Shown here: piece after piece, positions 2,170-15,426 of the stretch
Layout of the letters: each line of letters opens with the position of its first letter
Position numbering within the stretch: position 1 is the stretch's first letter
Origin: a virus
Length of the DNA: 23,670 bases
Strand: one strand, 5' to 3'
Virus record (IMG/VR): IMGVR_UViG_3300009167_000032
Location: 1-23,670 of that record
The notes under the pieces: model-generated
Seen by the model: the letters and a program-made list of their open reading frames with translations, nothing else
The model's database searches: none
What the model was told of the DNA's origin: nothing
Program-made: the position numbers and the translations under genes

Positions 2170-3489
2170 TTACGATCTGGTCTGGAGCGCGATGAAGTGC
2201 GACATGGTCGCCGACGCGCCGCCCTTGTACGGCGTGAGCGCGGACGCCCGGACCGGCTGGCCGTCGACCCGCATGATGAAACGGAACACCTGCTCGTCGT
2301 ACTCGAACCGGACGTGAATGCTTACGTCCGACCGAATGCCACCCTTCTCCGCGAGGACGTACCCGTTGGCGAAGTTGCAGAGGCAGATGTCGCCGACCGT
2401 CCCGAGCGCCGCCGCCTGCTCGATGGCGATTGCCGGAAGCCCCTTGATCCGACCGTAGGGGGCGTCCGCCATGCCGCCGGGCGGGAGGTACACCGGGATG
2501 CCGCCGGTGCCGACCGAGTACGCCATCTGCGACAGTTGCGGCTCGATCGTCTGGTTGTAGACCCAGATGTAGTTCGACGTCTGGCCGGCGAACCGACGCG
2601 AGTACATCTTGTCGATGTTCTCCGCCTGCACGGTCGCCGCCTTCTGCCCCGTCTCCTTGTCGACGGTCACGAGGCACCCGGCATTGAGGAACCCGAGCGG
2701 CTGGCCCGCGCCGGTCCCGTTGACGATCGCCTCGTCGAGCAGGAACCCGAACTCGCCGATGAACGACTCGCGGATGACGCCCTCCAGTTGCGCGGCGTCT
2801 TCGAGCGACTCGTCCGTGGCGTAGCAGAGGCCGGTCAGTTTCTTCAGCGTCAGTTCGATCTTGCGGAACTTCGGCTTCTTGCCGGTGAACTGATCCGCCT
2901 CGCCCTCCCAGTACCCGACGACGCCGCCGTAGCGGGTCGACACGCGGGAGGTCTCGTCCACGCCGTTGATCTTCGTGCCGTTCGCGCCGCCGCTGATCGG
3001 CACCCTGCGGCACCGGGAGGCGAGGACGCCGGTCGTGAACACGTCCTGCAGCAGTTGCGTGGAGAAGTCCGTCTGCACGAGGAACCCGCCATCGGACGGA
3101 ACGGTCTCGGACAGCCCCGAGATGGCACGCGACTTGTACAGACGCGGATCGACGGACCCGCCGGGCAGGCCGGCGCGATACACCGCCGCCATCTGCTCAC
3201 CGAAAGACATGAACCGATCCTGCCGCCGCTCCTCTGGCGGGGTGCTTTGCGGACGCGGGCGCGACAGGGGCTGCGCGCTCGGGGCTTCGAGGTCCGTGGT
3301 CATCCGCTCCTGCCGCTCCTGCGTCGCGATGATCGTGCGCAGTTCGTCGACGCCGTCCATGAGTTCCGTCTTCAGTTTGATCTCGCTCGCGGACGGATCG
3401 CGATTCTCGGCGATGCACTTTGCATCGATGTCTCCGACCTTCTTGACGAGCCGCGCAAGATCCTCGCGGTACTGCGTGATCGTCTTCAT
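2170..3489 (-). CDS. HK97-fold major capsid protein
   Basis: This 439-residue protein has the layout of HK97-type major capsid proteins. Residues 1-105 form a charged, helical delta-domain-like segment (KTITQYREDLARLVKKVGD) that ends in a proline-rich linker. The shell domain follows, with family-typical phrases such as ETVPSDGGFLVQTDFSTQLL, then the E-loop region (KKPKFRKIELTLKKLTGLCYATDE) and GTGAGQPLGFLNA. The N-terminal domain should act as a built-in scaffold and be removed by the upstream-encoded protease. The start at ATG 3489 has a GGAGGT site. A 145-base leader separates it from the protease gene and contains two hairpins with the same loop (separate entry). In HK97-type phages it assembles into the icosahedral shell. 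Confidence 0.95.
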   Translation of the reverse strand: MKTITQYREDLARLVKKVGDIDAKCIAENRDPSASEIKLKTELMDGVDELRTIIATQERQERMTTDLEAPSAQPLSRPRPQSTPPEERRQDRFMSFGEQMAAVYRAGLPGGSVDPRLYKSRAISGLSETVPSDGGFLVQTDFSTQLLQDVFTTGVLASRCRRVPISGGANGTKINGVDETSRVSTRYGGVVGYWEGEADQFTGKKPKFRKIELTLKKLTGLCYATDESLEDAAQLEGVIRESFIGEFGFLLDEAIVNGTGAGQPLGFLNAGCLVTVDKETGQKAATVQAENIDKMYSRRFAGQTSNYIWVYNQTIEPQLSQMAYSVGTGGIPVYLPPGGMADAPYGRIKGLPAIAIEQAAALGTVGDICLCNFANGYVLAEKGGIRSDVSIHVRFEYDEQVFRFIMRVDGQPVRASALTPYKGGASATMSHFIALQTRS

Positions 3490-3551
3490 CCTGTCCTACC
3501 TCCGCATGTATTGTCAGATAGTTGAAGTCCGACCCCGACCTCGTATGCGAT

Positions 3552-3612
3552 GCGGAATGGTTTGCAAGCCGGTTCCGCTTCGCCCCCCGTATGGTTTGCA
3601 AGCCGGTACGGG
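3552..3612 (-). promoter_or_regulatory. Twin hairpins with identical loops before the capsid gene
   Basis: Two 27-base hairpins sit 63 bases upstream of the capsid start. The upstream one in transcription order (3586-3612) has a 6-bp stem CCCGTA/TACGGG. The other (3552-3578) has a 6-bp stem GCGGAA/TTCCGC. The stems differ completely, yet both enclose the same 15-base loop, CCGGCTTGCAAACCA on the transcribed strand. The loop contains the self-complementary hexamer TTGCAA. Conserved loops on compensated stems suggest an RNA element, perhaps protein-bound or a loop-loop kissing pair, that controls capsid translation or mRNA stability. Neither hairpin has a U-run, so they are not intrinsic terminators. 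Confidence 0.7.
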
Positions 3613-3634
3613 AGGATCGTGGCAAAGCCCGTTA

Positions 3635-4507
3635 TCACGCCGTCGCCTTCTCTGCCCTGTAGAACAGTTCCGTGAACTTGTCCATCACCTTCGCCGGGGC
3701 GGGAGGCGGGTCCTGCGGCTTCTCCTGCAGCCCCGGGAGGAACGCCAGCATCGTGCGCAGTTCGTCGGCGGTGAGTTCCTGCCGGTCGCGAATCTTGTCG
3801 GCGATCCGGTACAGTTCCTTCCACTCCTCCGTGATCGGCGGAGGTAGGACGATCCCGCCGGGAACGATCACGCCTCCGGGGACCAGTCCCCAGTCCGTCC
3901 TCACCGCCGTGCCGTCGCTGTTGACCCACCCCGTCGAGGCGGCTTCGCTCGACACGGTGATGGTGCCGGTGGTCGTCACGGACGGCATCTTCCCCTTGTT
4001 CTGGAACAGCGATCGCACCTGCGCGGAGGTCGTCGGATACGCGGGGAACGTCACCACGCTCACGTCGAACAGCGTGACATCCGTCAACACGCGCTCGTCC
4101 TTGTCGTAGTCGTACTCCGCCTTGTTCACGATGAACCCGAACGACATCTGATTCACATCGCCGCGCCGCATCGACACGAGCAGGTCGTTCGCCCACGTCG
4201 TCCCCGGCGGGGTGATCGTCGTCGCGAGTCCCTTGTCGTCCTCGCGCAGCGTCAGCGTCTTCGCCTTGTTCCTGCCGAGGACGAAGTTCTCGTCATGATT
4301 CACGAGGCCCCGGATGTCGTTCTCCTTGATCGTCTTCGCGAACGCCCCCGGGCGGATGGACTCGCGGAACCACCCTCCGATGTCCGCCCATGTGTTGAAG
4401 ACGGCGGCATACCCTGTGATCTTCGGAGCATCCTCCCCGTCAACGCGCAGTTCGACTTCCGACATCGGCAGGCATCTGCGTTCCACCTCGTCCACCTTGT
4501 AGTACAT
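3635..4507 (-). CDS. HK97-family prohead maturation protease
   Basis: This is a 290-residue prohead protease of the S78/U35 type, which cleaves capsid N-terminal domains during maturation. Residues 27-60 carry the usual opening (ITGYAAVFNTW and FRESIRPGAFAKTI). The catalytic histidine is H71 in NHDENFVLGR and the catalytic serine is S122 in QMSFGF. A family-typical closing segment (LFDVSVVTFPAYPTTSAQVR) follows. An unusual extension of roughly 120 residues follows the protease domain; it is Gly/Val/Pro-rich and then helical (EEWKELYRIADKIRDR), possibly a scaffold-like tail. I chose ATG 4507 because AAGGAGGT lies directly before it. An ATG at 4522 would overlap the previous stop as ATGA but has no clear ribosome site. 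Confidence 0.92.
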   Translation of the reverse strand: MYYKVDEVERRCLPMSEVELRVDGEDAPKITGYAAVFNTWADIGGWFRESIRPGAFAKTIKENDIRGLVNHDENFVLGRNKAKTLTLREDDKGLATTITPPGTTWANDLLVSMRRGDVNQMSFGFIVNKAEYDYDKDERVLTDVTLFDVSVVTFPAYPTTSAQVRSLFQNKGKMPSVTTTGTITVSSEAASTGWVNSDGTAVRTDWGLVPGGVIVPGGIVLPPPITEEWKELYRIADKIRDRQELTADELRTMLAFLPGLQEKPQDPPPAPAKVMDKFTELFYRAEKATA

Positions 4508-4518
4508 GATGACCTCCT

Positions 4519-4674
4519 TCATCTCGTCTCGTATTTCGGCAGGATCGCCTTCTCTCTTCCACGCTTCTTCTCTTCTATATCCGCCTGCGCCCGCTCGAGG
4601 ATGTCGATCGCGAGGCGAATCGGGATCTTCTTCTTGAGCAGAAAGTTCAACAGTTCCTCACGCGGGTTCGACAT
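4519..4674 (-). CDS. Small basic helical protein between portal and protease, 51 aa
   Basis: This small gene overlaps the end of the portal gene by 17 bases and begins at ATG 4674 after a strong AGGAGGAG ribosome site. The ribosome site is the main evidence that it is real. The protein is helical and charged (REELLNFLLKKKIPIRLAI, then ERAQADIEEKKRGREKA), with no membrane segment. Its stop overlaps an ATG at 4522, one possible start of the protease. Small helical proteins between portal and protease genes are common in HK97-like phages, but their roles are mostly unknown. A longer frame starting at 4719 lacks a ribosome site and is less likely. Confidence 0.7.
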   Translation of the reverse strand: MSNPREELLNFLLKKKIPIRLAIDILERAQADIEEKKRGREKAILPKYETR

Positions 4675-9590: not shown

Positions 9591-10424
9591 TCAGGCCGGA
9601 CCGGGAGCGGAATCCCCCGCCAGCCCGGGGGCGGCCACCGCCGGGGCCCCGGGGGCATCCCAGTCCACGCCCCGCTCCTTCCACGCCCGGGTAGCGAACC
9701 TCGCCATCTCCATCAGCGAGAGAATGTTCCGCAGGTTCAGTTTCTTGTACTTCTCCACGATCGCGCGCCAGCGCATCATCGATTCCTCGTCATCCTGCAT
9801 GCCGATCAGGCGGGGCTTCCGGCTCTTCGAATCGAAGGACATCAGCCGGCGATACTTCCCGCCCACGATGTACGAGGTCGCGTCCACCGAATAGAAGGGA
9901 TAGCGATCCCAGATCCACCACGCGTTCAGACCATACGCATGAGTCTTCAGCCCGGGCTTCCTCCTCACGATCGAAAAGCAGTTGTCGAGATGGGCCCGCA
10001 GCCGACTCTTGTTCCGCTCCCGAGCGATTCCCCCCAGCGCGATGTAGTCGTACCGTTCCACCATCCGCTCCAATTCCTCGTATGGCGAGCGCGCATGGAA
10101 GGTGGCCATCGGAGCCAGCCCGAGCGCCTCCATCCTCTCCTGATTCTCGCGGGTCTTGACGTAGTCCCCGATCACGTCGAGGTTCGCGTACACCGTCAGG
10201 AAGGGGAGCACCCTCTTCACGAACTCCGCATACGCGTTCAGGTCGATGGTCACGCCCTTCGTCATGGCGGTGAAGGCCCCTGAATCGAGGAACACCCTCC
10301 CCTTCACCTTCGACAGATCCACCCGCTTGTCCGATTGAATGTAGTAGTACGAGAACAGACAGTCCGCCCCAGCCTCCTGCAGCAGCGGGAGGAACGCCTC
10401 TGCTCCGGCGAAGTACAGGATCAC
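9591..10424 (-). CDS. dpdA: DpdA-like DNA guanine transglycosylase
   Basis: This 277-residue protein belongs to the tRNA-guanine transglycosylase superfamily in its phage DpdA form, which exchanges guanine in DNA for a 7-deazaguanine such as preQ0. Key points along the chain are VFLDSGAFTAM (D47, the counterpart of the TGT DSGGF active-site motif) and YANLDVIGD (D83, D87). ALGGIARERNKS (G131-G132) is the base-binding loop, and SVDATSY (D181) is the likely nucleophile region. The C-terminal 25 residues are an Ala/Pro/Gly tail. It starts at GTG 10424, overlapping the preceding stop as GTGA. It is last in an operon with all four preQ0 synthesis genes, which strongly supports the assignment. Compared with bacterial TGT (about 370 aa) it is short, as phage forms are. 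Confidence 0.87.
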   Translation of the reverse strand: MILYFAGAEAFLPLLQEAGADCLFSYYYIQSDKRVDLSKVKGRVFLDSGAFTAMTKGVTIDLNAYAEFVKRVLPFLTVYANLDVIGDYVKTRENQERMEALGLAPMATFHARSPYEELERMVERYDYIALGGIARERNKSRLRAHLDNCFSIVRRKPGLKTHAYGLNAWWIWDRYPFYSVDATSYIVGGKYRRLMSFDSKSRKPRLIGMQDDEESMMRWRAIVEKYKKLNLRNILSLMEMARFATRAWKERGVDWDAPGAPAVAAPGLAGDSAPGPA

Positions 10425-10594
10425 TTCGAGGTCTTCCGCATCTCGTCAGCCAGCCAGATCACGTCCGCGATCAGATCGGCCATCACCTCCGTCAGATCAT
10501 CCTGCGTCACCGGGGTCGCGTCCCCCTGATCGTCCGTCACCCGTCGATGCAGATCCTGCAGGTCCGAGATGATCTCGTCCATCACGCGACGCAT
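10421..10594 (-). CDS. Small acidic protein in the modification operon, 57 aa
   Basis: A short frame fills the gap exactly between the 186-residue gene and dpdA. It starts at ATG 10594 one base after the previous stop, and its stop overlaps the dpdA GTG. This packing is good evidence of translation. The protein is helical and acidic, beginning MRRVMDEIISDLQDLHRRV and ending LIADVIWLADEMRKTSK, with no cysteines and no membrane segment. It could be a small partner of DpdA or of the upstream nuclease-like protein, but this is inferred only from gene order. No family is recognised. Confidence 0.65.
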   Translation of the reverse strand: MRRVMDEIISDLQDLHRRVTDDQGDATPVTQDDLTEVMADLIADVIWLADEMRKTSK

Positions 10595-10595
10595 T

Positions 10596-11156
10596 TCAGG
10601 TTCTCTCGAAATGCCGGGCGTCGATCATGTAGCAGGACTCCACGACCGGCTTCCCGTTTTCATATACCCGCCCGTTCCTTCCATGCGTCTCGACAGGGCA
10701 GTTCAGGACTCCATCCAGCGGATCGTACATCTTGCAGGTACGAACCCCGTCATCGAACCCCACCACGAAATAGAAATTGCACGCCCGCTCCTTCGCCTCG
10801 GCGATGCACTTGTCCGCCTTCGCTTTCGACAGCCAGATGTTCGGGTATCTCCTGTACGGAACGTGTCGCCTCTTCATCTCCATCAGCGCGAACAGGATCT
10901 CCGCGCTCCGATCGTGAACCTCGAAGTCGAAATGATGCAGCGGGGGCATCTCCGTCGATTGCATCCACGGGAACTTCCCGCACAGCGCCGCCATGATCTC
11001 CCGCTGCTCGACCCGGTCCTCCTCCTTCTCGAAGATCACGCCCGGACTCACCACCTCCACCTGCGCCGGGGATGGATCGAAATGCGTCGCCACGACATCC
11101 GTCCACTCCTCGTCCTCCCACTCGTCCGCCCCGGGCTCGCGCATCACTTCGCCCAT
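10596..11156 (-). CDS. Unknown protein, possible PD-(D/E)XK fold, in modification operon
   Basis: This 186-residue protein starts at ATG 11156 after AGGAGGAGG. Residues 1-50 are acidic. The central part looks like a restriction-nuclease-type core: D77 and D82 in FDFEVHDRSAEI, then LMEMKRR with E93 and K95. A helix (WLSKAKADKCIAEAKE) and a core strand (NFYFVVGFDDGVR) follow. A D82-x10-E93-x-K95 spacing and the following strand match the PD-(D/E)XK pattern seen in several phage nucleases, but this is pattern reading, not proof. It lies between gpt-folE and the 57-residue gene, so it probably serves DNA modification or discrimination of modified from unmodified DNA. It could instead be a non-nuclease accessory protein. 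Confidence 0.7.
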   Translation of the reverse strand: MGEVMREPGADEWEDEEWTDVVATHFDPSPAQVEVVSPGVIFEKEEDRVEQREIMAALCGKFPWMQSTEMPPLHHFDFEVHDRSAEILFALMEMKRRHVPYRRYPNIWLSKAKADKCIAEAKERACNFYFVVGFDDGVRTCKMYDPLDGVLNCPVETHGRNGRVYENGKPVVESCYMIDARHFERT

Positions 11157-11172
11157 CGCCTCCTCCTCTCGT

Positions 11173-12078
11173 TTACTTCTTCCAGTCCAGCAGGGCGAGG
11201 AACTCCGCCCGGGTCGCCGGATTCTCCCGGAACCTGCCCCGCAGGTCTGATGTCACCATCTCTCCTTGATTCTTGATCCCCCGCAGTTCCTTGCAGAGAT
11301 GCCGGCCCCGCAGCACCAGCGCGATCCCCAGCGGCTGAATCGACGCCTCGAGGTCGTCCACGATCTCCTTCACCAGCCGTTCCTGTATCTGCAGTTTCGC
11401 CGCGCGCCACTCCACCAGCCGGGCCACCTTCGACAGCCCGATCAATTTTCCCGCCGGGGCGGGGATGTAGGCGAAATAGTAGTCCCCGAAAAACGGCAGC
11501 ATGTGATGCTCGCAGAACGAATAGAACCTTCCCCGATCGGAGATCATCGAGTCATACGACACGCCGTCCTTCCCGTTCGGGAACGCCGTCAGCCGGGGAG
11601 CGGCGTCGCCATACCCCCGAAAGATCTCCCGGTACATCTGCGCGACCCGCTTCGGGGTGTCCGCCAGCCCTTCCCGGTTCGGGTCCTCGCCGATCGCCGA
11701 CAGCATCCGGGTCACGTTGTCCTCGATCGTCTCCTCCTTGCGCTCCCACGGAAAATGAATCCAGTCGGCCGTCTCGTGGACATGGTAATGGGCCCGCGCC
11801 GAGGCGTGCGGCTTCGAGTACAGGGCCGCCGTCACGTACTTCTTCAGGAACGGCTCGATCGTCCTTCCCGAATCCACGATGTCGTCGACGATCAGGGTGC
11901 TGCGGCCCGGTTCGTCGTGAACAGGGAGACGCAGTCGATGCGCCACCTCGAGGGCGACGTACCCTCCACCCCGGGGAATGCCCCAGACTCCGGTGAACCG
12001 ATGCCTCTTCTTCCCCATGAACTTCCCCGCCAACGCCGCGCAGTCCTTCCTGAACTGCTCCCACGTCACATCCTTCAT
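11173..12078 (-). CDS. folE: Gpt-like phosphoribosyltransferase fused to GTP cyclohydrolase I
   Basis: This 301-residue fusion has two enzyme domains. Residues 1-112 resemble E. coli Gpt. VTWEQFRKDCAALAGKF matches its N terminus in style, VWGIPRGGGYVA is the first active-site loop, and LIVDDIVDSGRT (62-73) is the PRPP-binding loop with D65 and D66. ADWIHFPWE (104-112) matches the base-binding tail of Gpt (DTWIEQPWD). Residues 117-301 are GTP cyclohydrolase I. FCEHHMLPF supplies zinc ligands C189 and H192 and catalytic H191, RHLC supplies H260 and ligand C262, and RGIKNQGEMVTSDLRG follows. The FolE part makes dihydroneopterin triphosphate, the first step to preQ0; the Gpt part should convert guanine or xanthine plus PRPP to the nucleotide. 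ATG 12078 overlaps the queE stop as ATGA. Confidence 0.92.
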   Translation of the reverse strand: MKDVTWEQFRKDCAALAGKFMGKKRHRFTGVWGIPRGGGYVALEVAHRLRLPVHDEPGRSTLIVDDIVDSGRTIEPFLKKYVTAALYSKPHASARAHYHVHETADWIHFPWERKEETIEDNVTRMLSAIGEDPNREGLADTPKRVAQMYREIFRGYGDAAPRLTAFPNGKDGVSYDSMISDRGRFYSFCEHHMLPFFGDYYFAYIPAPAGKLIGLSKVARLVEWRAAKLQIQERLVKEIVDDLEASIQPLGIALVLRGRHLCKELRGIKNQGEMVTSDLRGRFRENPATRAEFLALLDWKK

Positions 12079-12800
12079 CTTCCGCGCACCCCTTCCCAGA
12101 GTTCGACATGAAGCCGGGGCGACAGCCGGTACCCCTGCCGCTTGCACACTTCCGCGAGAGCCTGCATTCGCCGCACCCGCTCCGCTCCCCGCACATCCTC
12201 CCCGGTCCGGGGCATGAGTATGATCCGGGAGACGGGGATGCCGTACTTCCGCTCCAGTTCCCTGATCCTCACCATGTCCGTCCGGGGATCGTCCACCACG
12301 AACTTGAAGTACGCCTTCCCGTTGCGGAGGAACGCCATGATCGCGTCGGGGATCTCCGTCTCCACCCGGTTCTTCGCGTTCCCGATCTTGATGCAGACAT
12401 TGAATTGATCGATGGCCGCCGTCAGGGTCGGCGCCGGAGGGATCGTCCCATTCGTCTCCACCTCGACGAATATCTTCTTGCGCTTCAATTCCCGGGCGAG
12501 GTGTGCCACCACTCCCGCCTGCAGCAGCGGCTCCCCACCGGTGACGACGACGTGCTTCGCCGGGAACTTCTCCACCTCGTCCACCATCTTCAGGACCGAC
12601 ACCTTCTTCGTATCGTTCCAGACCTTCCACGCGTACGTGCTGTCGCACCACGCGCAACGAAGATTGCAGCCCGACAGGCGAATGAACACCGCGGGGACAC
12701 CGAGGTGAATCCCCTCGCCTTGCAGGGAGTAGAAGACCTCCGAGACCCTCAGTACGACAGGGTCACGAGGTTCGACTGGTCGCCCTTGAATCCCTCCCAC
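12075..12800 (-). CDS. queE: 7-carboxy-7-deazaguanine synthase QueE
   Basis: This radical-SAM enzyme converts 6-carboxytetrahydropterin to 7-carboxy-7-deazaguanine. The [4Fe-4S] motif is CNLRCAWC (CX3CX2C, C45, C49 and C52 from the GTG start). The family opening VSEVFYSLQGEG precedes it, and TGGEPLLQ and VEVETNGTIPP follow. The start is unclear. GTG 12800 has a GGGGGTGA-like site and gives 241 residues, but overlaps queD by 52 bases. The conserved family sequence begins only at a CTG at 12752, which overlaps the queD stop. A CTG start would give 225 residues, nearer the usual family length. The frame has no ATG close to either. The stop overlaps the gpt-folE start. Confidence 0.9.
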   Translation of the reverse strand: MGGIQGRPVEPRDPVVLRVSEVFYSLQGEGIHLGVPAVFIRLSGCNLRCAWCDSTYAWKVWNDTKKVSVLKMVDEVEKFPAKHVVVTGGEPLLQAGVVAHLARELKRKKIFVEVETNGTIPPAPTLTAAIDQFNVCIKIGNAKNRVETEIPDAIMAFLRNGKAYFKFVVDDPRTDMVRIRELERKYGIPVSRIILMPRTGEDVRGAERVRRMQALAEVCKRQGYRLSPRLHVELWEGVRGR

Positions 12801-13144
12801 ACCCTCACCCCCACCACGAACGTCCCGGCCGGTAGAATTTCTTGAACTTCCTGCCAGAGCAGGGTCGCGAAGTTCTCCGCCGTCGTCGGCCTCGACTCGT
12901 AGTTCTTCACCTTCTTGAACTCGTCGTTCAGGTATCGATGATCGAACCGCCGCAGGACTTCCTTCACCCGACCGAAGTCCACGACGATGTCCTCCATCTC
13001 GATCCCGCCACGACCTTCCGCCTCGATGTCCATCTCGACCTTGTAGGTATGGCCATGCAGATTGCAGCACTTCTTCGTCGTCAGCCACGGCATGTCCGGC
13101 AATTGATGCGCGCACTCCAAGAAATCCACCACCGTCACCATCAT
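12749..13144 (-). CDS. queD: 6-carboxy-5,6,7,8-tetrahydropterin synthase QueD
   Basis: This 131-residue enzyme turns dihydroneopterin triphosphate into 6-carboxytetrahydropterin. Zinc ligands are H13 in ECAHQL and H30 and H32 in CCNLHGHTY; the catalytic cysteine is C26 or C27 just before. FDHRYLND (D69, H70) and VWEG (E117) complete the active site, and PTTAENFATLLW is a family hallmark. Length is typical. I use ATG 13144; GGAGGTGAG lies upstream, and a GTG at 13150 has even better spacing and would add two residues. A farther ATG at 13189 would overlap queC and has no ribosome site. It sits four to ten bases downstream of queC. Confidence 0.93.
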   Translation of the reverse strand: MMVTVVDFLECAHQLPDMPWLTTKKCCNLHGHTYKVEMDIEAEGRGGIEMEDIVVDFGRVKEVLRRFDHRYLNDEFKKVKNYESRPTTAENFATLLWQEVQEILPAGTFVVGVRVWEGFKGDQSNLVTLSY

Positions 13145-13154
13145 CTTCACGACC

Positions 13155-13841
13155 TCACCTCCCGCCGTCCTCGACTCCCGCTTCCGCAAACGCCGCCGCC
13201 CGGGAGATACACGTCGGACAGGTTCCGCAAGGAGCGGGCCCGCCGGCGTAGCACGACCACGTCAAGGCGAACGGCAACTTCATCGACGCCCCCTTCCGAA
13301 CGACATCCGCCTTCGTCATCCACGCCAGCGGGGTCACCAGCCGGACCTTATGATAGGTCCCGACGTAGATCGCGTTCGCCATCGCCCCGAGAAACTCCGG
13401 GGTGCAGTCCGGGTATGCCCAGTTTCTCGCATCCTCCGCGTGCATCCCCGCGTAGATGTACCCGACCTGATGCCGCAGGGCCAGCGCAGCCGCGACCGAC
13501 AGCAGGTTCCCGTTCCTGAACGGAACGTATGTCGGGGAGACACCGAACGACTCCTGCAGTTCCTCGTAGGTCATCTTCGGCAGCGGCGCATCCGGGTCGG
13601 TCAGGGTCGATCCCTGCCCCCGGAAGATTCCCGGGTCCAGCGTCACCACCTCGTGCGGGACCCCGTAATAGGTCGACACATCCTTCGCCGCTCCTACCTC
13701 GCGTTCATGTTTCTGACCGTACGACAGGGAAAGGGCCCGCACATTCTCTTCGCCGAACGCCCCGACGGCGATGGCCAGACAGACCGAGGAGTCAAGACCT
13801 CCCGACAACAGCACCAGCGCGCGTTTCTTTTGTGGCTGCAC
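13155..13841 (-). CDS. queC: 7-cyano-7-deazaguanine (preQ0) synthase QueC
   Basis: This 228-residue enzyme uses ATP and ammonia to convert 7-carboxy-7-deazaguanine to preQ0. The PP-loop ATP site is SGGLDSS at residues 13-19, and VPFRNGNLLS (106-115) is a family motif. The zinc cluster C197, C205, C208 and C211 sits in SCYAGGPAPCGTCPTC. The start is GTG 13841 with a perfect AGGAGG six bases upstream. The gene overlaps the preceding HNH gene by 50 bases. There is no fused glutamine amidotransferase domain, so the product should be preQ0 itself rather than an amidine precursor. Confidence 0.94.
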   Translation of the reverse strand: MQPQKKRALVLLSGGLDSSVCLAIAVGAFGEENVRALSLSYGQKHEREVGAAKDVSTYYGVPHEVVTLDPGIFRGQGSTLTDPDAPLPKMTYEELQESFGVSPTYVPFRNGNLLSVAAALALRHQVGYIYAGMHAEDARNWAYPDCTPEFLGAMANAIYVGTYHKVRLVTPLAWMTKADVVRKGASMKLPFALTWSCYAGGPAPCGTCPTCISRAAAFAEAGVEDGGR

Positions 13842-14371: not shown

Positions 14372-14937
14372 TCCTTTCCTTGCCGATCTCCTCCGGTCCT
14401 CTACTTTCCACGCCGCTCCTGCCAATCCCTTCCCTTCCGATACGCTCCCTTCTTCACCGCTCCCCTCCCTTCCTTTCCTGCCGGTCCACTCCAGTCGTGT
14501 CCCCTCGTATCCAGTCTTCGCCACTCCTGCCTTGCCTCTCCGTACTACTCGCCTCCATTCCATTCCCCTCCTGCCTTGCCCTTCCACTCCGGTCGTCGCC
14601 GGTCTACTCCGGTCCGATCCCCTCTCTTCCGGTCCATTCCCTTCCTGCCGATCCTATCCCTGCCGGTGCATTCCTTTCCGATCCGCTCCTGCCCCGCCCC
14701 TCCCGTCCTATCCCTTCCACTCCGATCCCGTCCGATCCGCTCCGCTCCTGCCCTGCCTTTCCGGGCCAGTCGCCTCCGTTCCATTCTGCTCCATGCCGAT
14801 CCCATCCTGTCCTGCCGATCCGGTCCATTCGTCTCCGGTCCCTTCCAATTCCCTCCGATCCAATCCGCTCCTGCCTTTCCAATCCGCTCCGGTCGATTCC
14901 CCTCTCCGCCATTCCGATCCGTTCCTATTCTGTTGCC
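14372..14937 (-). repeat. Degenerate pentamer array with regular phase shifts
   Basis: About 566 bases are built from TCCNN units (NNGGA on the transcribed strand), roughly 113 copies with the second and third positions nearly invariant. Nine TCCTGCC motifs, at 14417, 14476, 14525, 14569, 14643, 14687, 14746, 14810 and 14869, each contain one 4-base unit (TCCT). All eight spacings (59, 49, 44, 74, 44, 59, 64, 59) equal 5k+4, so the lattice is kept exactly between phase shifts. Several frames on both strands stay open over it only because the unit rarely makes stops; I see no ribosome-site support for any. It starts right after the stop of the 162-residue gene and ends just before the small-RNA promoter. 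Confidence 0.88.
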
Positions 14938-15426
14938 TTACTTCACGACGCGATCGATCTCGGCCCACACCGACACGAGTTCCACGAGGTATTTGTACTT
15001 CTGCCGGATGTTCAGCAGCCGCGCCTTCACGTCCGACAGGAGTTGCTCGCGCATCTCGTCCGAGGCGATCGCATCCTCGATGGACTCGTATGCACGCTCC
15101 CGACTCTCCGTTCCCGCGATGCTTGGGAACGCCGGGGCGAAGACCGCTTCCTCTCCCTTCTCGTCCTGCTCGACGATGTACACCATCGCGATGAGTTGCC
15201 GCGCCTTATGCGTTCGCCAATTCGCCGCCTGCATCGCCTCGCTCTCATCGAAGAAGTACGAGTGAAGGGGATGATTCTCCGGCTTCGCCTCCTGCCAGAG
15301 ATACCTCGGCAGTTGCTGTTCCTTCCCCTCCTTCCCGCACTTGATACGGACGCGGACTATTTCCGCAGCCACTTGTTCCGCAGGGATCGCGGGTCGCGCC
15401 CCTCCCCTGCGGTAGATGTACCGCAT
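14938..15426 (-). CDS. Conserved phage protein of unknown function, 162 aa
   Basis: The gene starts at ATG 15426 behind AAGGAGGAG and lies two bases after the previous stop. The N terminus is basic (RYIYRRGGARPAIPAEQVA). The middle carries the phrase HPLHSYFFDESEAMQAANWR followed by HKARQLI, a pattern I associate with small phage proteins of unknown role. The C-terminal third is helical (LLSDVKARLLNIRQKYKYL). No catalytic motif is visible. It is co-transcribed with the 225-residue gene and is the last gene before the pentamer array, into which its transcript would continue as a long 3' untranslated region. Confidence 0.75.
   Translation of the reverse strand: MRYIYRRGGARPAIPAEQVAAEIVRVRIKCGKEGKEQQLPRYLWQEAKPENHPLHSYFFDESEAMQAANWRTHKARQLIAMVYIVEQDEKGEEAVFAPAFPSIAGTESRERAYESIEDAIASDEMREQLLSDVKARLLNIRQKYKYLVELVSVWAEIDRVVK

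Follow-up and report, generated by a model that had tools for sequence, protein, structure and literature searches.

The DNA analysed here (the window) is a phage record of 23.7 kb. Its minus strand carries a head module with genes for the terminase, the portal, a Peptidase_S78 prohead protease and an HK97-type capsid protein, and transcripts of these genes therefore correspond to the reverse complement of the displayed letters. Two hairpins lie between the protease and capsid genes, and the features of this region, in the order in which they are transcribed, are as follows.

3635-4522, minus strand: prohead protease (Peptidase_S78), whose C-terminal tail DKFTELFYRAEKATA stops ahead of the hairpins
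3490-3634, minus strand: protease-capsid gap of 145 nt, holding both hairpins
3586-3612, minus strand: first hairpin in the mRNA, with outer stem CCCGUA/UACGGG, internal loop CC/A, inner helix GG/CC and terminal loop CUUGCAAA
3552-3578, minus strand: second hairpin in the mRNA, with outer stem GCGGAA/UUCCGC, and internal loop, inner helix and terminal loop as in the first
2170-3489, minus strand: major capsid protein, HK97 type (Phage_capsid), with a start codon approximately 62 nt downstream of the second hairpin

The transcript letters of the two copies are CCCGUA-CCGGCUUGCAAACCA-UACGGG and GCGGAA-CCGGCUUGCAAACCA-UUCCGC, in agreement with the original prediction of two 27-nt hairpins at these positions with 6-bp stems of unlike sequence. 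The 15 nt between the stems are indeed identical in both copies, but they do not form the open loop that had been described: the unconstrained minimum-energy fold of the sense strand gives, in both copies, 6 bp, CC, 2 bp, an 8-nt loop, 2 bp, A and 6 bp, and this fold with the CC/A internal loop is the same one that covaries among the relatives described below. The outer stem of the first hairpin can be extended by two or three further pairs, to approximately 3583-3615, and that of the second by GCGA/UCGC beyond an A/A mismatch. The sense-strand fold of the pair has a z-score of −2.96, and the antisense strand of the window hairpins is the more stable (−12.4 vs −8.3 kcal/mol for the sense strand). 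The ribosome-binding site of the capsid gene (Shine-Dalgarno GGAGG) is outside both hairpins and is free in the predicted fold. A promoter and terminator scan of the head region of the window gave no signal above shuffled sequences, and the coding strand nearby has no terminator-like site.

Relatives were gathered by a search with the capsid protein, which provided approximately 86 distinct protease-capsid junctions. Two hairpins that share a loop but differ in their stems are present in 24 of the 86 capsid-upstream regions and in one of 253 control windows placed inside the capsid gene, which excludes a chance origin of the pair. At least one site is present in 50 of 66 S78 protease tails and at least two in 34 of 66, frequencies that partly reflect the collection of the metagenomic set by similarity to the window's protease; in control windows from the same loci the corresponding values are 47 of 972 and 1 of 972, and the antisense strand of the S78 tails has sites in 3 of 66. 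A descriptor built on the CC/A internal loop was also applied to both strands of 5.1 Mb of sequence, and among the matches listed the two-site clusters are at the protease-capsid junction only. The hairpin pair thus exists and sits at the same junction in many phages, mostly as exactly two copies and always at one position. The spacing between the twins is 33–34 nt in close relatives, and the distance to the capsid start is 64–110 nt in the window's clade. Separately, an exact search of viral contigs with the 15-nt loop returned 74 stretches. The relevant ones are those that carry two copies; the rest, with a single match each, resemble chance occurrences.

Placement relative to the protease gene varies. 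In nearly all relatives the protease reading frame contains the hairpins in its 3' end, where they occupy a linker ahead of a conserved C-terminal tail such as DKWTELFIRAERIAPS, whereas in the window and in L113 the tail ends earlier (at the DKFTELFYRAEKATA stop in the window) and the hairpins follow the stop codon and are non-coding. The earlier description of the site as the leader of the capsid gene therefore applies to the window, where the pair is non-coding and precedes that gene, but not to most relatives, which carry it inside the protease coding sequence. The hairpin element was thus retained while its context shifted from coding to non-coding. Two relatives, L121 and L137, have terminator-like hairpins after the protease stop, between the hairpin array and the capsid start.

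The hairpins are copies of one motif with a variable outer stem of 4–9 bp, an asymmetric internal loop with CC on the 5' side and A on the 3' side, an inner helix of 2–6 bp closed by G-C, and a variable terminal loop. Both window hairpins conform to the motif rule, having 5' C[CA] and 3' A between the outer stem and a G-C-closed inner helix. The CC/A internal loop, with the pairs on either side of it, stays constant across the relatives, but there is variation in the outer stem, in the inner helix and in the terminal loop, the last being 8 nt in the window and 3–12 nt in relatives. Its variants within the window's clade are CTTGCAAA, CTCGCAAA, CAGCAAA, CTGCTCA, CTACAAA and GGCGA. The two-site clusters also include distant S78 phages whose inner helix and terminal loop are wholly unlike those of the window; L271, for instance, has cgag CC gag CGAAG ctc A ctcg together with cgag CC gatgg GAAC ccatc A ctcg.

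The loop sequence had been taken as the conserved part, and this does not hold, as there are homologues that lack it; stem pairing, the other feature on which the original prediction was to stand or fall, is retained in the homologous leaders within the structure containing the CC/A internal loop. The suggestion that the two loops kiss through a self-complementary TTGCAA also fails, since the conserved part is the CC/A internal loop with its flanking pairs. The palindrome is lost in several phages in which the twins persist (CTCGCAAA in L113, CAGCAAA in L108, CTACAAA in L161 and CTGCTCA in L115), and the self-complementary core is likewise absent from L271, L274 and L299, whose loops differ entirely. 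In the window and in L078, L108, L113, L115, L133, L161 and L248, both copies within a phage have the same terminal loop on unlike stems, with loops differing among phages; this within-genome homogenisation is not seen in the majority of distant relatives.

Covariation was counted in 39 hairpins of equal length. There are 79 double-change cells compared with 28.7 in shuffled data and at most 13 when the partners are slid, although part of the count of 79 is inflated by the selection of sites by pairing, and the pairs that played no part in selection therefore matter; these are still Watson-Crick in 71–75% (outer pairs 4 and 5) and 85% (inner pair 2) of cases. A covariance model (R1) trained on the 39 hairpins, none of which comes from the window or its 27-nt sisters, matches the minus strand of the window at 3552-3578 (25.0 bits, E = 0.0021) and at 3586-3612 (22.6 bits, E = 0.0086), with no other match in the window genome at E ≤ 1. 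R1 also matches hairpins beyond the window's two. When R1 was run on eight whole genomes, single hairpins proved too short for specificity at genome scale.

Most sites are in frame and encode peptides resembling EPxxHS or PPAKH, so that selection at the protein level needed testing. When the codons of 64 tails were resampled synonymously, 3.2 sites were obtained on average (maximum 8) compared with 66 observed. Some sites keep the motif while encoding other peptides (KPIKIT, KPINIT, EPESSPL and GTGLQTIP), in some instances in other frames; the two copies of L078 have the same bases and yet are translated in different frames, as PACKP and GTGLQTIP. The resampling and the frame changes together rule out a repeat maintained at the peptide level (EPxxHS, PPAKH or RDA), and since the hairpins are coding in most relatives but, in the window and L113, follow the stop codon, it is the nucleic acid that carries the function. 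The pair is selected as a nucleic-acid structure, independently of the peptide that it encodes. Covarying stems had been read as evidence of a functional nucleic-acid element ahead of the capsid gene, and the tail counts, the double changes, the held-out model R1 and the synonymous resampling all bear this out.

A different array occupies the same place in phages that have a homologous capsid together with a ClpP/S14-type protease. These have two to five hairpins with a C-closed GNRAN pentaloop (GTGAT, GGGAT, GAGAT and others) in the corresponding tail, located in the last 330 nt of the protease genes (L080-L102, L114-L197); the sites have the form C[GNRAN]G and encode xRDx peptides, and their stems covary. 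Synonymous resampling gives 16.3 expected sites (maximum 28) against 88 observed, and the antisense strand has two. At the pair next to the closing pair, 143 sites comprise 98 Watson-Crick, 28 G.U and two A.C combinations, with 25% Watson-Crick in the control, and the predominance of G.U over A.C identifies the sense strand as the one that folds. This GNRA-like array is apparently a second RNA family that is also undescribed. Several phages (L142, L146, L155 and L166, and also L246 and L250) combine an S78 protease domain with a tail of the second type, 'LRDAGxSxxQAKEIL ... RDAE ... DRVxELLxRAE', which is otherwise found after ClpP-type proteases; with some S78 proteases carrying the ClpP-type tail, tail and hairpins together behave as a portable module that is not tied to the protease domain.

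Mismatches in the CC/A motif itself show no preference for the sense strand (nine G.U vs ten A.C), and we infer that it acts as sense RNA from the direction of the operon and from the GNRA-like sister family. In the window's clade the sense strand has a conserved C opposite A at the third inner pair, corresponding to G.U on the antisense strand, which is hard to account for in a sense RNA without formation of a protonated C.A pair.

None of the cultured S78 phages sampled (HK97, TG1, Sebastisaurus, Lrm1, QHHSV-1, phiPsal1, Rhizobium 16-3, Synechococcus Ssp-JY37 and others) has the pair, and the protease tail is short in most of them; the pair is therefore not required for HK97-type assembly in general. 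Among the S78 loci in the bacterial genomes sampled, one (L419, from an actinobacterial assembly) has two copies.

Comparison with known elements did not identify the motif. The Rfam 15 covariance models have no match in the window above the gathering score; with permissive settings, the window and eight relatives yielded just two sub-threshold matches, elsewhere in the window, and the hairpin region alone gave one irrelevant match of 9 bits. In open-access papers, where surveys centre on intergenic regions, we found no description of a hairpin motif at the protease-capsid junction, nor any earlier description of the CC/A twin hairpins as an RNA motif. As RNA-motif surveys focus on intergenic regions and this element is mostly inside a reading frame, that is probably why it has been missed.

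One architectural parallel is the MS2/R17 coat operator, which has one 5' bulged A, a 2-bp upper helix and an ANYA tetraloop, lies at the coat/replicase boundary and couples translation to assembly. Both have a lower stem of free sequence, one or more unpaired bases, a 2-bp upper helix, a loop and a gene-boundary position, but the window element has 5' CC and 3' A, free loops (8 nt in the window), two copies and a dsDNA phage as its host genome; an operator of the MS2 type is rejected, the 5' bulged A and the ANYA tetraloop being absent in the window. The HK97-fold capsid is not known to bind RNA. The lambda boxB/N site is likewise a short phage hairpin with an interchangeable stem, and the GNRA-like pentaloops of the sister array are a further resemblance. 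It differs from the motif of the window, in which the loop is of 8 nt and there is an internal loop as well, and neither a boxA nor an N-like gene was found. Arrays of this kind are also formed by CsrA/RsmA sites and ANTAR targets, which have at least two short hairpins with a common loop in one transcript. CsrA/RsmA is set aside because there is no GGA in the window loop CUUGCAAA, nor in the loops of many relatives, and an ANTAR target because it needs two hexanucleotide loops with A at position 1 and G at position 4. HK022 put is a cis-acting phage element of approximately 70 nt with two irregular stem-loops, which follows early promoters and acts on the host RNA polymerase (PMC9378689); the window element also has two stem-loops but lies in the middle of the head operon, not after an early promoter. 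The S6:S18-binding motif of the RpsF leader (RF02893) has a stem, an internal loop with conserved cytosines and a short hairpin on top (PMC4647458). Mimicry of this leader is rejected, since the unpaired CCG run of the E. coli leader is 3' of the hairpin whereas the CC of the window is 5' of the inner hairpin, and there is no Rfam match.

The hairpin pair is probably a control element for phage head production. The reading that we tentatively prefer, at somewhat short of an even chance, is that it acts in cis, within the mRNA, as a protein-binding element and sets how much capsid is made relative to protease. A candidate protein would read the CC/A internal loop specifically, the two sites suiting a dimer or cooperative binding, and once bound would lower or time capsid translation, or the stability of the capsid mRNA, compared with the protease message. 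A likely candidate is an unassembled head protein, the capsid or the protease, and capsid synthesis would then be coupled to head assembly. The scaffolding protein of P22 is an example of post-transcriptional autoregulation by unassembled head proteins, a precedent that makes an assembly-sensing operator reasonable but unproven. Since the ribosome-binding site is free in the predicted fold, its direct sequestration is unlikely; repression by the bound protein, control of coupling from the protease gene and RNA processing are possible routes. Several points stand against a protein operator: the presence of two hairpin types in one capsid clade makes it less likely that a single, conserved binder is the capsid protein, and translating ribosomes would unfold hairpins lying inside the protease frame. 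The free ribosome-binding site, the lack of a sense-strand bias in the mismatches, the greater stability of the antisense fold and the absence of the pair from the cultured S78 phages sampled also weigh against it. That the CC/A arrays of S78 phages and the GNRA-like arrays of ClpP phages are unrelated, independently placed assembly-sensing operators, at which an unassembled head protein binds and throttles capsid translation, seems to us rather unlikely; if true, HK97-like dsDNA phages would have a general means of controlling the stoichiometry of head proteins at the RNA level.

Several other explanations bear on the same observations. A site of mRNA processing or stability, at which cleavage or end protection parts a stable and abundant capsid message from the protease message with no specific regulator, is unlikely: it would fit the location between low-copy and high-copy head proteins of one operon and the survival of function on moving from coding to non-coding sequence, and twin stable hairpins ahead of the ribosome-binding site would shield a 5' end, but a general nuclease or end-protection role needs no invariant CC/A internal loop and the stems are shorter than a classical RNase III site requires. 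Nascent hairpins might instead load a factor on RNA polymerase, as do lambda boxB, HK022 put and the LoaP/ANTAR target hairpins, so that the long head-tail operon is read through. Twin hairpins of approximately 60 nt are put-like in size and number, the loops of the sister family are GNRA-like as in boxB, and the terminator-like hairpins of L121 and L137 would suit such a role in those phages; however, put and nut sites directly follow early promoters, no terminator-like site was found nearby on the window's coding strand, and a constant tie to the protease-capsid junction would be odd, so that we regard antitermination or suppression of polarity as decidedly unlikely.

The covariation would be equally expected of DNA hairpins, which would be extruded while phage DNA is single-stranded (in replication, recombination or packaging) and be recognised by a DNA-binding protein, and the CC/A motif shows no excess of G.U over A.C. 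The strict link to a capsid-upstream position in the coding-strand orientation, and the bias of the GNRA-like family towards sense RNA, make a DNA-level role improbable. A selfish or mobile palindromic repeat of the REP or RPE type, tolerated in the linker, could explain why in several close relatives the copies have a common loop and differing stems, and why the pair has shifted from the linker to an intergenic position between L078-type and window-type phages. Dispersed copies were found neither among the matches listed in 5.1 Mb, which include no clusters elsewhere, nor in the window genome, in which R1 has just two matches, and the fixed position and copy number count further against such a repeat, which we consider most improbable.

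In HK97-like heads the demand for capsid protein is far above that for protease, with the two genes adjacent in one operon, and to our knowledge how the capsid:protease ratio is set is poorly understood. A covarying element at that junction, retained across the shift from coding to non-coding sequence and giving way to another hairpin array when the protease is of a different family, opens the question to direct tests with simple reporters, and the RNA-protein pair, if found, would be a new tethering tool akin to MS2 or boxB.

Two features of the window outside the head genes were also recorded. Positions 9591-13841 (minus strand) encode QueC, QueD-like (PTPS), QueE-like (radical SAM) and FolE (GTP cyclohydrolase I) proteins and a queuine tRNA-ribosyltransferase-like gene product (PHROG 887), and this is a probable cluster of 7-deazaguanine DNA-modification genes. 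Positions 14380-15000 contain degenerate TCC-rich repeats with periods of 15–59 and 73–86% match, together with low-complexity open reading frames on both strands.
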